DNA of 64,000 nt from Arthrobacter sp. PAMC25284 (GTDB taxonomy: Bacteria; Actinomycetota; Actinomycetes; Actinomycetales; Micrococcaceae): NCBI RefSeq assembly GCF_019443425.1, contig NZ_CP080382.1, positions 2,108,001 to 2,172,000 on the forward strand, given 5' to 3'. A program made the position numbers and the translations under genes. The notes beneath the pieces were generated by a model. The model did no database searches. It was not told the DNA's origin and saw nothing but the letters and a program-made list of their open reading frames with translations. Below, piece by piece: positions 1 to 43,827 of the stretch; position 1 is the stretch's first letter, and each line of letters begins with the position of its first letter.

Positions 1-1
1 C

Positions 2-1384
2 ATCATCGAAGCAGACGCTCTTAAAGCGGAATGGCCGGAGGTCGACGCCATAATCGGCAATCCGCCCTTCATCGGCTATTCAAGGATCAGGGAGTACAAC
101 GGCGCCGACTACTTGAAATTCCTTGAAAGTACCTTCAAAGCAGGCATCGCTGATCTCTGCGTTTACTGGTTCAGAAAAGCAAACGACCACCTGAAAAATG
201 GGCAGAGGGCCGGACTCGTCGCCACGAACTCCATCACTCAAAACATCTCTCGCCATGCCGGGCTTGATTACATCTTCGCTAACGGCGCAGTCATAACGGA
301 CGCAGTCAGGTCTCAGGACTGGTCTGGTGAGGCGGCCGTCGATGTGTCGCTGGTGAACTGGGTGAAGAATCCGCTCGCCCAACCCACAAGCTACGTGCTC
401 GACCGCCGCGAAGTGGCTGGCATCAACAACTTTCTGCAAGCGGGAGTCGGATCCAGACGTGCCTTACCACTCCCAGGCAATCGGGGCGTAGCGTTCGAGG
501 GATGCAAGCCCGCAGGGGATGGCTTTGTTCTTGATAATGCCGAAGCTCACACGCTGCTGCTACGAACAGATGCTGACTATGGACGAGTGGTGCGTCAGTA
601 TTTAGTGGGCCGCGACATAGCCAACAGTCCGAATCAAGAGCCAAGTCGATGGATCATCGACTTCGGCATGCTTGAACTTGAAGACGCAATGGCCTATCCA
701 GCCGCCCTGTCGATTGTGCGAGAGCGAGTCAAGCCTGTGCGTGACCAAAACAACCGAGAGAGTCGACGAGAACGCTGGTGGCGTTTTGGAGAGGCCGTAC
801 CCGCCATGCGCGACGCGATGGAGGGATCGGAGAGGTACATCGCAGTGGGCATCACCGGCAAGCGCCTTCTTCTCTCTTGGGCAGATACATCTTGGTGCCC
901 AAGCAACCTTGTCGTTGCAATTGCGCGGGAAGATGACTGGACTATGGGGATCTTATCCTCATCCATTCATGAAACGTGGGCCAGGGAACAAAGTTCGACG
1001 CTTGAAGACAGGTTGCGCTACACGTCAAAGACGGCACTTATTACCTTCCCGTTGCCCGACCTCGCTAGCGCGCAGCGAGACAAGATCGAGCAGGCGGCTC
1101 GTGACATCGGCACTGAGCGGACGAAGGCTTGCGACAAGCTGGTCGCGCAGGGGAAAAAGCAAGCGGGCCTGACAGCCGTCTACAACGCTATGGACGAGGG
1201 AGCTTTCACCGATCTTCGGGCGGCTCATAAGCGCCTCGACGAATCTGTGTGTCGTTCTTACGACTGGCCCACCTCGGTCCTCGACGATCGAGCAGAAGTC
1301 GTCGACCGGCTTTACGAACTCAACGCGAAGATTGCTGCCGACCTCAGTGGCTACACCCCCTTCGCTCAGGGGGAGAGCGACTAA
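2..1384 (+). CDS. MmeI-like DNA adenine-N6 methyltransferase (5' partial)
   Basis: The gene runs off the left edge: the frame is open from base 2 and 460 residues are visible. IIGNPPFIGYSRI (visible residues 17-29) is the NPP(F/Y) catalytic motif IV of adenine-N6 DNA methyltransferases. It is followed by a C-x-YWF segment and RAGLVATNSI, the arrangement seen in MmeI-like (COG1002) enzymes, where target-recognition and C-terminal helical domains follow (here roughly residue 130 onward). These enzymes methylate adenine in a specific site, and many also carry an N-terminal nuclease, which here would lie off the window. The stop overlaps the ATG of the HEPN gene (TAATG), implying coupled translation. 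The family call is fairly firm; whether it is a full restriction-modification enzyme or a methylase only is unknown. Confidence 0.8.
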   Translation: MIEADALKAEWPEVDAIIGNPPFIGYSRIREYNGADYLKFLESTFKAGIADLCVYWFRKANDHLKNGQRAGLVATNSITQNISRHAGLDYIFANGAVITDAVRSQDWSGEAAVDVSLVNWVKNPLAQPTSYVLDRREVAGINNFLQAGVGSRRALPLPGNRGVAFEGCKPAGDGFVLDNAEAHTLLLRTDADYGRVVRQYLVGRDIANSPNQEPSRWIIDFGMLELEDAMAYPAALSIVRERVKPVRDQNNRESRRERWWRFGEAVPAMRDAMEGSERYIAVGITGKRLLLSWADTSWCPSNLVVAIAREDDWTMGILSSSIHETWAREQSSTLEDRLRYTSKTALITFPLPDLASAQRDKIEQAARDIGTERTKACDKLVAQGKKQAGLTAVYNAMDEGAFTDLRAAHKRLDESVCRSYDWPTSVLDDRAEVVDRLYELNAKIAADLSGYTPFAQGESD

Positions 1385-2196
1385 TGCCACGCTTCTCAGT
1401 TCGCAACGGCATCGTTGCGCCCCGCACGGTCCTCCAGGTCGATGATCTGGATGCCGAAACACGCATCCACATCTGGAACGTCGTCTACGCACTCAAGATG
1501 GACTCCTATGACCACTACGCATATCTTGAAAAGCGCGACGCGTTCGTCTCGGCCCTTTGGGTCGAATGGAGTAGATCTTTCGATGATCTCCACAGCACAT
1601 CAGCCAAAGAGTTCATGCACGAGGTCAAAGCATCGATCGTTGAGGGGACAATGGCCCAGGCCTTCGATGTCATAGAGTTATGCCTGGAACACGACGGGAC
1701 AGACTTGTCCGATCTGCTCAACTTAGTCTTCGAGAAGTACCTCGTGGGCTACCGGGTAGTAAACGGTGAGATTATTCAGGTTACCGAGGGGGCTGAGGTC
1801 GAGGCAATCGAGACCGCTCTGGAGCTGCTTGAGCCACACGGCGGCGCACGCAAACACTTGCTCAATGCGCTTTCCTTGCTTTCGAATCGGCAAGATCCCC
1901 ATCACTTGAATGTGGTCAAGGAGTCGATCAGCGCGGTCGAAGCCGTCGCTCGCCACCTCACGGGAGCCAAGACACTTGGAGAGGCACTGAAAAAGTTGGA
2001 GGCCAACGGCGTTCCGAGTCATCACGCCTTGGTGGATGGCTGGCTGAAGATTTACGGGTACGTCAACGACGAAGGCGGCATACGCCACGGGAGTATCAAG
2101 CACGGTGAAGTGGACGAAGCACTGGCAACCTATTTCCTCGTCACTTGCTCTTCGATGGCCGGGTACCTGATCAAGAAGGCAGGCACACACGCATAG
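1384..2196 (+). CDS. AbiJ-like protein with HEPN-type C-terminal domain
   Basis: A 270-residue protein whose ATG overlaps the methyltransferase stop. The N-terminal part (LDAETRIHIWNVVYA, about residues 21-35) resembles the AbiJ_NTD4/HEPN-associated N-terminal domain. The C-terminal half has ESISAVEAVARHLTGAKTLG and then GIRHGSIKH, in which R234 and H240 give the R-X5-H pattern of HEPN ribonucleases. Known AbiJ-type proteins act in abortive infection, and HEPN domains usually cleave RNA. Coupling to a DNA methyltransferase suggests a defence module in which the HEPN protein is the effector or a backup. Target and trigger are not visible. Alternative: a non-catalytic HEPN accessory of the modification system. 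Confidence 0.65.
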   Translation: MPRFSVRNGIVAPRTVLQVDDLDAETRIHIWNVVYALKMDSYDHYAYLEKRDAFVSALWVEWSRSFDDLHSTSAKEFMHEVKASIVEGTMAQAFDVIELCLEHDGTDLSDLLNLVFEKYLVGYRVVNGEIIQVTEGAEVEAIETALELLEPHGGARKHLLNALSLLSNRQDPHHLNVVKESISAVEAVARHLTGAKTLGEALKKLEANGVPSHHALVDGWLKIYGYVNDEGGIRHGSIKHGEVDEALATYFLVTCSSMAGYLIKKAGTHA

Positions 2197-4578: not shown

Positions 4579-5298
4579 TTGCCAAGTTCGAGCAAAGTGG
4601 GGGTGGACGCAATCAAGGAATTCTGGCGCTCAAAGGGTGCGATGCTGGTGTATCTAATCGCGCTGGGAGCTGCGATCTTCACCTTCATGGCCGCAGGTAG
4701 AACGCCGGAGGAGCAAGCGGTGCTCGCTTTCCAGACGGGTGCCGCAGTCGTAGCCGCTTGGCTTTTCACACTCGCTTATCCGTTTCTCGCGGACGCCATC
4801 ATCGCCATCCGTGGTCACCGCAAACTCAGCACGGACATGGTTATCGTCACCCAAGAACGTGACCAGCTAAAGGATCAGCTCGACGAGCTTTTGAATGTGG
4901 TTCACCCTGCGGCAGTCAAAGCCTCGTATGAGAAGGGCCGGGACTCGATCCTGGGGAGTCTTTTAGCAGAAGCGTCGCGCGCACAACTGGCAGTTGGAGC
5001 CGTCAGCGTCCAAGATAGTGGGTTGCTTATTTACGCCACACTTACGGATGGCGCCGAACCGCCCCCCTCATCAAGATTCCGAGCAAAGACGAAACTCGTT
5101 CAGAAAGCCCTTGGCGAGCTTGAAGTTGTCGAGAAGCAACCCGTCGGTGAGATGTTGATTTTGCGTGTTATCGAGTCGTTGGATGACGACTATTGGGGGG
5201 CAGTGTACGAACGCGCCAAAACTTTAGAGACCCCACCTGAGGACCTAGTGCTCTACCGCGAGAACTTTAATGAACAGATGGCGAGGAGAAACATATGA
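4579..5298 (+). CDS. Two-TM coiled-coil membrane protein, unknown
   Basis: The product is 239 residues from TTG 4579, but no ribosome site precedes this codon. Two hydrophobic helices (about residues 20-38 and 48-72) are followed by a heptad-like stretch (VTQERDQLKDQLDELLNVV) and a cytoplasmic domain of about 130 residues. The start is doubtful: removing one G from the run at 4599-4603 would join the frame to NLSDWAAHILAKFEQSG, which begins at CTG 4548 behind a GGAG. The stop overlaps the ATG of the next gene (ATGA), so the two are coupled and probably interact. It could be a membrane scaffold or sensor. No family is recognised. Confidence 0.55.
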   Translation: MPSSSKVGVDAIKEFWRSKGAMLVYLIALGAAIFTFMAAGRTPEEQAVLAFQTGAAVVAAWLFTLAYPFLADAIIAIRGHRKLSTDMVIVTQERDQLKDQLDELLNVVHPAAVKASYEKGRDSILGSLLAEASRAQLAVGAVSVQDSGLLIYATLTDGAEPPPSSRFRAKTKLVQKALGELEVVEKQPVGEMLILRVIESLDDDYWGAVYERAKTLETPPEDLVLYRENFNEQMARRNI

Positions 5299-5675
5299 AG
5301 CGAGTCAATGCAAGAATCGCCACGGTCTTGGGTGACCAGCGTGTAGCGATCAACATCGGGGCGGACATCGGCGTCAGCGTAGACGACCAAGTCATTATCT
5401 TTGATGTGATTGAGATTCCCGATCCTGATAACCCAGGTGAGGTGCTGGGAGAGACGGAACTGCCTGTGCTAACTATGAAGATAGAATCTGTGTCCGACCG
5501 GTTTTCAGTGGCACGTGTGCCGTTCAAGATGCCGAACATCGGCCAGATAGTCTCGGGCATTAGGGCTGAGCCTGAGGTTCTCATCACCAAAGACGCCAGC
5601 ATGAAGGAGCGATCCGGATGGGTCGTTGTCGAACCCGGAGAGACTGTGCAGGTTCAGTTGACCGGTCAAGACTAA
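5295..5675 (+). CDS. FlgT C-terminal-like small protein
   Basis: ATG 5295 overlaps the preceding stop and follows GAGGAG. The product has 126 residues. The pattern RIATVLGDQRVAINIGADIG, then GVSVDDQ, then IPDPDNPGEVLGETE and a closing S-V-S-D-R-F-S-V-A-R-V strand matches the small beta-barrel of the FlgT C-terminal domain (v-x-G-x-x-v-x-i-n-x-G ... G-d ... d-P-x-t-g-x-x-l-G). FlgT itself is a flagellar envelope protein of Gram-negatives; no flagellar genes are seen here, so only the fold is proposed. It forms a two-gene unit with the coiled-coil membrane protein. Function unknown. Confidence 0.5.
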   Translation: MKRVNARIATVLGDQRVAINIGADIGVSVDDQVIIFDVIEIPDPDNPGEVLGETELPVLTMKIESVSDRFSVARVPFKMPNIGQIVSGIRAEPEVLITKDASMKERSGWVVVEPGETVQVQLTGQD

Positions 5676-5781
5676 GTACGGATTCGCCGCCCCCAACGAA
5701 ATCACTATCGGGAACTCCTGCCTGAGCTGGTGCTCCACTATGCAATCGGTCCCTATTTTTTTCTCGTCACTATTCATCCTG

Positions 5782-5988
5782 CTCACCACTCATCACACCT
5801 TCGGTGTTCGGGTGGTGTGGTGAGGTTTTGGGGCGCTAGTTGGTGAGTAGTGGTGAGCAGGTGGTGAGTGGTGAGTAAAGCCCTGCCAGTCGTACTCTCA
5901 GGGATTATTCCCTCACCAACTTCTCACCATTTCCGTCCCCGGATTGGTTGATATTGGCGTCGCCTGCTCACCAAACGATTTGGTGAGC
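5782..5988. repeat. Cluster of ten TGGTGAG/CTCACCA heptamers (iteron or arm-site like)
   Basis: Within 206 bp the heptamer occurs as TGGTGAG at 5818, 5841, 5851, 5862, 5869 and 5981, and as CTCACCA at 5782, 5912, 5923 and 5967. Several direct copies are 10-11 bp apart, about one helical turn. The last pair forms a perfect palindrome with 10-bp arms (5966-5975 and 5979-5988) around CGA. The cluster ends 156 bp before the attachment core, the usual position for integrase or excisionase arm sites, or for an element's replication or transfer origin. It is in a gene-free interval (5676-6143). Confidence 0.7.
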
Positions 5989-6143
5989 ACTCAGACGATC
6001 GAATCCAAGGGAATCGGCACTGCTTGATGTGAGCACGATTTGAGCGCAATGCATTGTGATCAGCAGATATTTTTAGTGCTTAGGGAGTATCGAAATTCGC
6101 GTCAGATCAACGTTTTTGCTCTGCCGCCTGTGCTTCTGCGAAA

Positions 6144-6167
6144 GTTCAAATCCCACCGTCACCGCCA
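6144..6167 (+). other. Attachment site: 3' end of tRNA-Ser(GCT)-like gene
   Basis: These 24 bases (from GTTCAAATCCC to ACCGCCA) are a tRNA 3' end: T-loop TTCAAAT, the 3' strand of the T stem, acceptor strand CGTCACC, discriminator G and encoded CCA. The upstream bases (CTGCGAAA) do not pair with the T stem and no tRNA body is present, so this is a fragment duplicated by site-specific integration. It resembles the end of actinobacterial tRNA-Ser(GCT). The complete tRNA should lie left of the window at the other end of the island. Confidence 0.8.
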
Positions 6168-6175
6168 AGTAGAAT

Positions 6176-6220
6176 GGCCCTTGATTTCCTTTGTTTTCAA
6201 AGGAAATCAAGGGCCTTTTT
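6176..6220 (+). terminator. Rho-independent terminator of the original tRNA gene
   Basis: A perfect 18-bp stem (6176-6193 with 6198-6215) closes a TTTT loop and is followed by five T. It starts 8 bases after the tRNA 3' end, so it was probably the native terminator of the tRNA gene, now separated from its promoter by the island. Confidence 0.85.
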
Positions 6221-41965: not shown

Positions 41966-42904
41966 ATGAACCAGCCGCCAGCCACACGGACCCACGACAA
42001 AAAGCAGGCCGGCTCGCTTCAGGCCGGTGACTGCCTGGTCCTGCCCGATGGAGAGCACTCCGCCGAAATCCAAAAGCTCGACGTGGAAACCGACGACTTC
42101 GGCGCCCCGGCCGTGGTCCTCGCTACGATCACCGGCGGCGGTGTCCTGAGGATCGCAGCCGGTTCCACGATGCGGCTCGCGGGAAACGGGCCGGAGACCA
42201 CGCCGCTGGCCGTCGTCCCCGCCGCTGCTGCCGCCGTCGTACCTCCCCTGCCGGCGCCGCCGGCCGCCGCAATCATCCCGTCCGAAGAAGACCTTTCCCT
42301 GATCCCCACTCCGGACGGTTCGCCGGAATCCACGGTGGAGGCGGTCGCCGGGGCGCACCCGGGTGCGGCCGGAGTGCAGTTACTCGGCGAACGGCTCGCG
42401 AAGGGCATCAATACGAAGTCCGGCAGCTGCCTCAAAGACCTGAGCGATCTGGCACACGAACTGTTCGTCATCCGCCAAGACGCCGAGAACGCCCTCGCGG
42501 TCGCGGACCTGCTTAATGTCCTGCCCTTCGACGGCAATCCCGGACGCTGGACCTCGGTGGAAGCGTCCCTGTCTTTGTCCAGCTACATCTGCCGGTTGCG
42601 GGGGCTGACGGACCGGGCTGCACTGTACGAGAAGTTCCTTCGGGCGCCCGATGCCATGGAACCGGACCCGTTTAAGGCCAGGATCAATACCAAGGTACTC
42701 CAGCGTTCGCTCAACGAGCCGAACCTCTATGACAACGAGATTTTGCGGTCCGTCGACAACTCGGATCCGGATGCGGAACGTGAATGGCGGCTGCTGCGGC
42801 TTGAGTCCTTGATGTTCCTGAGGGCCCACGGCGGTTCCGAGACTTTTGGCGCGGAGGAGCTGGACCAAAGGATCGGCGAGGAACTCGAGGCAGTCCGCGC
42901 CTGA
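41966..42904 (+). CDS. DUF6707-like protein
   Basis: ATG 41966; 312 residues. An N-terminal beta-rich part (about 1-75: LQAGDCLVLPDGEHSAEIQK) may be an SH3- or hint-like barrel. An Ala/Pro linker (about 85-130) follows, then a helical C-terminal domain starting VQLLGERLAKGINTKSGSC and containing NVLPFDGNPGRWTSVEASLS, matching the DUF6707 family. No catalytic motif is visible. Function unknown. The GGTCCCGC repeat tract begins 24 bp after the stop. Confidence 0.6.
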   Translation: MNQPPATRTHDKKQAGSLQAGDCLVLPDGEHSAEIQKLDVETDDFGAPAVVLATITGGGVLRIAAGSTMRLAGNGPETTPLAVVPAAAAAVVPPLPAPPAAAIIPSEEDLSLIPTPDGSPESTVEAVAGAHPGAAGVQLLGERLAKGINTKSGSCLKDLSDLAHELFVIRQDAENALAVADLLNVLPFDGNPGRWTSVEASLSLSSYICRLRGLTDRAALYEKFLRAPDAMEPDPFKARINTKVLQRSLNEPNLYDNEILRSVDNSDPDAEREWRLLRLESLMFLRAHGGSETFGAEELDQRIGEELEAVRA

Positions 42905-42927
42905 CGCCGCGATTGGAGTCACCGCCC

Positions 42928-43027
42928 GGTCCCGCTTGGTCCCGCCGTCCGGTCCCGCCGTCTGGTCCCGCCTGGTCCCGCCGTCTGGTCCCGCCTGGTC
43001 CCGCCGTCTGGTCCCGCTGGGTCCCGC
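42928..43027. repeat. Nine-copy GGTCCCGC tandem array
   Basis: GGTCCCGC starts at 42928, 42938, 42951, 42964, 42974, 42987, 42997, 43010 and 43020. Spacings are mostly alternating 10 and 13 bp, giving a 23-bp composite unit (GGTCCCGCCT plus GGTCCCGCCGTCT). It lies between the DUF6707 and SRPBCC genes, outside any supported gene. Confidence 0.85.
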
Positions 43028-43101
43028 TTTCGGGGTGCTGCCCGGCATTTGATAGCCGGCGGACCCTACCCCGCGGCGGCCGGGCGTTGTAGATTCAGCC
43101 C

Positions 43102-43827
43102 ATGACGAACAATCTGAGCGTTGTGATCAATTCCGACGCGCAGCAAGTCTGGACCATGCTGCGCGAACCCGCCCTGGTGGCCCAATGGCACGGCTGGACT
43201 GCCGATGACCAGGCTGCCGAGATCAACGAGATTTATTTCAGCCCGAACGTCGTCGAAGCCGCCGACCACACGTCCCTCAAGGTCGACGGCGGCGACATCT
43301 TCACCCTCCACCCGGTCCAGACCGGCACCGAGGTCAGCATTACCCGGTCTGCGGTTGACCACGACTCCGAGTGGGCCGCGTGGGACGAGGACATCACCCA
43401 GGGCTGGCTGACCTTCCTCCACCAGTTGCGCTTCGCGCTGGAGCGGCACCCGCACGGAAAACGGAAAACCCTGTTCTGCTCCGTGCCCGGCACCGGCGGG
43501 TCCGCGATTGAGAAGCTCGGACTCGACGGGTTGCCCGCCGCCGGGGAACCCTACTCGCTGACGCTGGCCACCGGCGAGAAAATCTCCGGCAAAGTCTGGT
43601 TCCGCAGCAACCATCAGGCCGGCCTGACCGTACACAGTTACGCCGAGCACGGGGAAGGCCTCGTGATCGTGGCGGACCAGCCCGCCATCCCGGAGCTCCG
43701 GCCCGACGGCGGATCCCTGATCATCGTCTCGACCTACGATCTGGGGGCCCACCAGCTGGAGTCCATCCGGACCCATTGGGACTCCTGGCGGGCTGAGAAC
43801 TACCCCACATCGGAGCCGATGCGCTAA
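43102..43827 (+). CDS. SRPBCC (START-like) domain protein
   Basis: ATG 43102; 241 residues. The N-terminal domain (about 1-115) has the AHSA1/SRPBCC pattern: SVVINSDAQQVWTMLREPAL, then VAQWHGW and ITQGWLTFLHQLRFALE. The C-terminal 110 residues are less conserved and may be a second, ligand-cavity domain. These folds bind hydrophobic ligands; no catalytic residues are evident. It is 34 bp upstream of tgt on the same strand, so the two are likely co-transcribed. Confidence 0.75.
   Translation: MTNNLSVVINSDAQQVWTMLREPALVAQWHGWTADDQAAEINEIYFSPNVVEAADHTSLKVDGGDIFTLHPVQTGTEVSITRSAVDHDSEWAAWDEDITQGWLTFLHQLRFALERHPHGKRKTLFCSVPGTGGSAIEKLGLDGLPAAGEPYSLTLATGEKISGKVWFRSNHQAGLTVHSYAEHGEGLVIVADQPAIPELRPDGGSLIIVSTYDLGAHQLESIRTHWDSWRAENYPTSEPMR

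Follow-up and report, generated by a model that had tools for sequence, protein, structure and literature searches.

The Streptomyces plasmid pWTY27 carries repA and repB, the latter coding for a predicted primase/polymerase, and an adjoining 300-bp noncoding iteron region. As the relevant parts of its report describe them, five 8-bp and five 7-bp repeats present one motif in opposite orientations and form long inverted repeats, RepA binds these iterons in gel shift and footprinting experiments, and replication is bidirectional (PMC3583192). Among the systems that we compared, this plasmid appears from its description to be the nearest characterized case to a cluster of short repeats in Arthrobacter sp. 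PAMC25284. The cluster lies within a 64,000-nucleotide stretch of contig NZ_CP080382.1 (positions 2,108,001 to 2,172,000; G000:C1:2108001-2172000), here called the window and numbered from its first base, inside an integrated mobile element of 14.84 kb that we designate ELEM. Because the array goes with a replicative helicase, and relatives of this helicase have equivalent arrays beside their genes, we conclude that the array, comprising iterons, a hairpin, and a palindrome, is very probably the replication origin of ELEM. The kind of signal is ordinary and known, an iteron origin; its position is unusual, at the far end of the element from the helicase gene.

ELEM resembles pWTY27 in having a primase/polymerase (Prim-Pol) gene with a second rep gene and short repeats in both orientations, RepA and the ELEM helicase being compared here by description. 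The pWTY27 plasmid is free, and its iterons are described as next to the rep genes; ELEM is integrated, and 10.5 kb separate its iterons from the helicase gene. Actinomycete integrative and conjugative elements (AICEs), as far as the cited account covers them, are likewise integrated elements of actinobacteria that combine an integrase with a module of Prim-Pol and a second rep gene (RepPP), but they encode an FtsK-type Tra protein (PMC3218068), for which ELEM gave no PF01580 match in the 16 of its 17 named open reading frames (ORFs) that were scanned. ELEM is also similar to phage-inducible chromosomal islands (PICIs) of Gram-positive bacteria, which are described as having the integrase gene and a regulator on one strand, xis-pri-rep on the opposite strand, cargo that interferes with phages, and origins with two iteron sets (PMC6092414). 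The PICI origin is reported to lie immediately 3' of rep (PMC6092414), whereas the proposed ELEM origin is distal; ELEM also differs in its Prim-Pol/AAA_25 replicase. In pRN1-type systems, Prim-Pol and helicase likewise make up the initiator, and the pRN1 origin is described as a stem-loop 3' of the rep gene for a Prim-Pol/SF3 helicase/winged-helix protein, which works when moved (PMC4234260). ELEM differs from these in having iterons and a RecA-type AAA_25 helicase. The alpha protein of satellite phage P4, compared through its description in the same report, unites primase and helicase and binds origin repeats through a winged-helix domain, but the P4 primase is of the bacterial (Toprim) type (PMC4234260).

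The repeat array and its element

The window contains ten exact copies of TGGTGAG/CTCACCA (both strands counted) within 206 bp, positions 5782 to 5987, with start-to-start spacings of 36, 23, 10, 11, 7, 43, 11, 44, and 14. A preliminary description of this DNA had reported ten identical heptamers at this place, and all were found. The 10- to 11-bp phase noted there holds for three of the nine intervals; the palindrome, given as 23 bp with 10-bp arms, is indeed perfect and centered on CGA but measures 25 bp with 11-bp arms (5965-5975 and 5979-5989). The array and the nearby attachment site are laid out as follows:

5782..5987, no strand assigned: complete iteron array, the proposed replication origin
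5782 (-), 5818 (+), 5841 (+), 5851 (+), 5862 (+), 5869 (+), 5912 (-), 5923 (-), 5967 (-), 5981 (+): starts of the ten heptamers
5782..5824, no strand assigned: hairpin, an imperfect stem-loop whose stem is formed by the inverted heptamers 5782-5788 (-) and 5818-5824 (+)
5841..5875, plus strand: four direct heptamers, starting at 5841, 5851, 5862, and 5869
5912..5929, minus strand: two inverted heptamers, starting at 5912 and 5923
5965..5989, no strand assigned: 25-bp palindrome holding the heptamers at 5967 (-) and 5981 (+)
6144..6167, plus strand: attR, a 24-bp copy of the tRNA-Ser(CGA) 3' end

What sets the array apart is its clustering, not the abundance of the heptamer in the window. Over the whole window, TGGTGAG occurs 14 times against a shuffle mean of 7.64, a mild enrichment (14 or more copies in 3 of 100 shuffles). 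In 100 Markov-1 simulated sequences of 64 kb each, the largest number of copies of any 7-mer per 206 bp was 3 in 6 runs, 4 in 88, and 5 in 6; the array, with 10, is clustered far beyond chance. As DNA, the hairpin folds with -10.8 kcal/mol (z -3.05) and the palindrome with a z of -5.20.

Such clusters are rare. Three or more TGGTGAG pairs (3 to 5 bp apart) at one place were found in 2 of 395 family genomes, G000 and G113, which are those of the two elements with the array, while isolated pairs of this kind occur in 91 of the 395; TGGTGAGGACTGGTGAG is one that recurs within the genus. A common intergenic repeat was rejected on this distribution, and the array is not spread over many unrelated intergenic regions; such a spread was one of the findings that, by the preliminary description, would speak against its reading. 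BLASTN of window positions 5700 to 6200 gave no match in phages and left the array unmatched in plasmids, where the sole match covered query positions 445 to 497 (window 6144-6196, the tRNA end and beyond). A three-heptamer pattern had no match in viral contigs, and no identical element was found in another strain.

The right end of ELEM, called attR in the preliminary description, proved to be real: its partner attL is the tRNA-Ser(CGA) 3' end itself (genome positions 2099306-2099329), 14,838 bp leftward, and the array stops 156 bp short of attR, as had been stated. The tRNA end is joined directly to sequence resembling the right flank in 18 other genomes of the genus among 204 searched (three mismatches each to the pattern). 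Four of these genomes were fetched, and in each an intact tRNA-Ser(CGA) ends at that junction, the arrangement that an empty site should show. From attL, the first genes encode an integrase (PF00589 and an arm-binding domain) and a helix-turn-helix (HTH) regulator (HTH_3 match below the cutoff; PHROG HTH DNA-binding protein). Genes in the rightward direction follow for an excisionase-like protein (HTH_17), Prim-Pol (PF09250, E 2.6e-17), and the helicase (AAA_25, PF13481, E 1.8e-9), and then small ORFs, an MmeI-like protein, an AbiJ_NTD4 ORF, further small ORFs, the array, and attR. The specific att site, the integrase with a divergent regulator, and the xis-pri-rep order are all features of PICIs and satellites, and PICIs, at about 15 kb, are similar to ELEM in size.

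A sister element, L041 in Arthrobacter sp. H35-D1, has a helicase 66% identical to that of ELEM, a Prim-Pol 50% identical, and an integrase 48% identical (tblastn); no closer helicase relative was found in 206 genomes of the genus. This element targets tRNA-Thr(CGT), with att repeats of 47 bp. The preliminary description had proposed searching related elements for TGGTGAG arrays, and this nearest one has ten copies in 208 bp, in identical order and orientation. Its spacings, 37, 23, 11, 11, 7, 42, 11, 44, and 15, are each at most 1 bp off those of ELEM, and each array has a hairpin built from inverted heptamers at its start and the palindrome at its end (in L041, -12.1 kcal/mol with z -3.28 and z -7.69, respectively). 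Since the heptamers agree at 70 of 70 bases and the layout is kept, while the flanks agree at only 39 of 100 and 60 of 153, comparison of the two indicates that the array is under constraint and that its surroundings have no recognizable conservation; the bases between heptamers agree at 79 of 136. ELEM combines a Prim-Pol and an AAA_25 helicase, a matching initiator, with an array that it shares with the element encoding the 66% identical helicase. The two elements also have in common the HTH regulator, xis, Prim-Pol, and five further ORFs.

Arrays at the helicase genes of relatives

Helicase matches at E <= 1e-20 occur in 11 of 295 family genomes, the genome of ELEM included. In relatives, other 7-mers are clustered at the helicase gene 3' end, for example GAGTCAG (12 copies), GGGAACA (10), GTGTGTC (8), and GGAACCA (7). 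We scored the interval from -300 to +600 around the helicase stop codon, a place picked after inspection of early loci, and called clusters strong at a score of <= -4 and weak at <= -2. In 39 loci, both TGGTGAG elements excluded, a strong cluster was present in 28 and one that is at least weak in 38; of 325 control windows matched in size and taken from these loci, 5 and 18, respectively, had such clusters. Among the first 32 loci, 7 score merely between -2 and -4. The seven loci fetched after the test was written (L119-L125) yielded four strong clusters and seven that are at least weak, three of these between -2 and -4. No row was dropped from the 39, which hold one plasmid twice (L104 and L116; distinct records give 27 of 38 strong and 37 of 38 at least weak), two loci from one genome (L053 and L054), and two with short or broken helicase frames (L123 and L125), for which the position of the array is relative to a premature stop.

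Two plasmids are among these relatives, pKRAD02, described as circular and 12,917 bp long (PMC2587704), whose helicase gene contains nine GGGAACC copies within its 3' end, and p-XQ-29-C, with GGCAGGT seven times. A Microbacterium phage has a weak cluster (score -2.9). Prim-Pol and AAA_25 are fused in five of eight relatives scanned. At G000:C1:3696643-3697614 (L048), the window's own genome encodes a further AAA_25 helicase from this family (about 45%); its 3' end has an array of ACACAGT, which is weaker. L053 and L054 (G068) are helicase fragments of almost identical sequence, both situated at contig ends, but their arrays differ (GGAACCA seven times versus a GGACCCA type five times), possibly a divergence in compatibility.

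Neither ELEM nor L041 has any 7-mer repeated three or more times at the 3' end of its helicase gene, and the array lies 10,491 bp and 8,592 bp, respectively, beyond the gene; the origin therefore appears to have been relocated in this branch. At such a distance, adjacency cannot itself support a link to the helicase in ELEM. We do not take adjacency to the initiator as defining, because a displaced origin still works in pRN1. A replication origin had been one of several functions offered in the preliminary description, and it is the one favored by an array that tracks the replicative helicase and has equivalents beside the genes of its relatives.

The array could instead be a cis site of both elements with another task: a copy-number or incompatibility locus, a partition site, an operator array, or a packaging site. 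Copy control can be a function of iteron arrays in other systems, ELEM and L041 share several other genes, and the array is distant from the replication genes, all of which would suit such a role. However, equivalents stand beside the helicase gene in most of the 39 relatives, among them plasmids and, weakly, a phage, and no other cluster lies near the helicase gene in ELEM or L041. We consider a nonorigin site quite improbable.

The position of the equivalent arrays, at the helicase gene 3' end, also speaks against a cis site for transfer or mobilization with a helper conjugative element, either clt-like, for an FtsK/TraB translocase, or an oriT. Actinobacterial clt loci do consist of short repeats as well, that of pWTY27 being described as four TGACACC copies bound by TraA (PMC3583192). 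Yet no FtsK/TraB (PF01580) or relaxase Pfam match was found in 16 of the 17 named ELEM ORFs, the remaining one, of 102 amino acids, lying outside the scan. The transfer origin raised in the preliminary description is very unlikely indeed, and the candidate was rejected on the lack of a translocase or relaxase gene among the ORFs scanned.

The integrase and its probable arm sites

Another proposal was that the heptamers are arm-type or accessory sites at which the integrase or the excisionase-like protein acts during integration and excision. An array of short direct and inverted repeats that ends 156 bp from attR would be in keeping with this. The array does not follow the integrase, however. 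Matches to the ELEM integrase at E <= 1e-60 occur in 30 of 295 family genomes, its own included, and in 20 loci of integrase relatives (51 to 59% identical by tblastn; fetched at about 20 kb each), TGGTGAG reaches at most 2 copies per 260 bp and at most 6 per whole locus. L041, by contrast, has the array with an integrase that is 48% identical. Its array ends 942 bp from its attR; proximity to the att site is therefore not conserved.

Further, a different direct repeat holds the arm position in all 12 elements in which both att repeats were found. In ELEM, this pair consists of GTGAGCGCACTTTGAGCGCAA by attL and the following site near attR:

6029..6049, plus strand: probable integrase arm-type site, GTGAGCACGATTTGAGCGCAA, 21 bp, with its partner at genome positions 2099399-2099419 beside attL

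In most elements, the repeat is a doubled 8-bp motif of the TGNNCNCA type with an 11-bp period; the best pair of L057 does not have this doubled form. Measured from the core starts, the pairs lie at +91 to +117 for attL and at -103 to -115 for attR. Over 19 positions they have 0 to 4 mismatches, 10 of the 12 elements having at most 3 and 6 having at most 1. Among 414 pairs of random windows from the same loci, 3 have at most 3 mismatches and 61 at most 4. The GTGAGCACGATTTGAGCGCAA site is the sole match in the window to the joint pattern within 3 mismatches, where 0.01 is expected. The 12 elements come from 24 loci, of which 10 gave no repeat; L056, a second copy of the place of L041, and L076, whose repeat is the arm motif itself, were left out. 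Position and pairing suggest that 6029-6049 and its attL partner are probably the integrase arm sites. With 20 integrase-relative loci compared and another repeat at the arm-site position, arm sites were rejected as the function of the heptamers and are barely credible as such.

Where both att repeats fall within the fetched 20 kb (10 loci, L047 included), the integrase relatives lie in tRNA-integrated islands of 6 to 10 kb. Some integrase-relative loci, such as L075 and L076, have 7-mer clusters of their own.

Proposed replication and the cargo of ELEM

In the mechanism that we propose, the integrase and the excisionase-like protein would excise ELEM as a circle. The RecA-type AAA_25 helicase would then bind the TGGTGAG iterons, probably via a winged-helix-like C-terminal domain, and open the DNA at the array, where the Prim-Pol primase would start copying and host polymerases would extend. 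We infer excision and replication of the element, as well as melting and priming at the array. That the helicase reads the heptamers and opens the DNA for Prim-Pol to prime is most likely because of the pWTY27, pRN1, and PICI cases, and the helicase itself, rather than another element protein, is the most likely reader of the repeats.

Several observations weigh against an origin read by the helicase. The TGGTGAG array is common to just two elements, and since these share other genes besides the helicase, a different shared protein could bind the heptamers. In neither element does the array stand beside the initiator gene, as it does in relatives, and L052, one of the helicase relatives, is without a cluster. 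In 50-bp windows near the array, the lowest G+C contents are 0.44 (5740-5789) and 0.40 (6040-6119), against an element mean of 0.58, so that no segment for melting is strongly A+T-rich. Among the integrase relatives, both att repeats were found in 9 of 20 loci, so some elements may be cut, the other 11 possibly exceeding the fetched 20 kb. As to the helicase, the C-terminal domains of five of seven proteins have winged-helix Pfam matches (GntR, IclR, and LexA types), all below the curated cutoffs; of the other two, L046 has no match and L048 has AbiEi_3 alone. Iteron similarity correlates with C-terminal similarity at a rho of 0.22 and with similarity of the helicase core at 0.07, over 378 nonindependent pairs (29 loci; pairs with too little overlap fell out of the 406), a weak covariation of winged helix and iterons that is at most suggestive. 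A structure model of the L041 helicase, built on a three-sequence alignment, has a mean pLDDT of 52.1, only its RecA-like middle being moderately confident. Because most of the C-terminal part (residues 274-335 and 351-375) has values under 50, a winged helix is neither shown nor excluded. Among solved structures, the helicase profile found five matching sequences, each of them a RAD51.

More tentatively, ELEM may belong to a class of actinobacterial satellite-like islands with a split Prim-Pol/RecA-type helicase and a hairpin-iteron-palindrome origin, in which the heptamer shifts in concert over all copies between lineages, giving compatibility groups. In this branch, the origin would now be att-proximal, with the gap between rep genes and origin free for defense cargo; we regard this as a possibility on the doubtful side. 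Among the matches listed in a search of openly licensed literature, we recognized no description of this origin.

The array offers a concrete, testable origin for actinobacterial Prim-Pol/AAA_25 replicons, in our sample mostly chromosomal loci, with two plasmids and, weakly, a phage. It suggests that an origin can sit at a distance from its replicase genes, and it is now distinguished from the integrase's own probable sites. A small vector for bacteria of the Arthrobacter type might be made from the replicase genes and the origin, and the heptamers, being specific to lineages, may help to study how a DNA-binding domain changes jointly with every copy of its site.

The gap between the helicase gene and the array holds the phage-defense cargo of ELEM at window positions 1 to 2196, where the MmeI-like gene is directly followed by the AbiJ_NTD4/PDC-S32 gene:

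1..1384, plus strand: 3' part of an MmeI-like type IIG restriction-methylation gene (929 amino acids, beginning left of the window; Pfam MmeI domains, PADLOC REase_MTase_IIG)
1384..2196, plus strand: AbiJ_NTD4-domain ORF, candidate phage-defense cargo (PADLOC PDC-S32, E 2.8e-78)

Just ahead of the array, at 4579-5675, are two neighboring ORFs, the second with a weak FlgT_C match alone. Elsewhere in the window, intergenic tandem repeats of the GGTCCCGC type, about 9 copies per 100 bp, occupy positions 42926-43030, between the ORFs 41966-42904 and 43102-43827.
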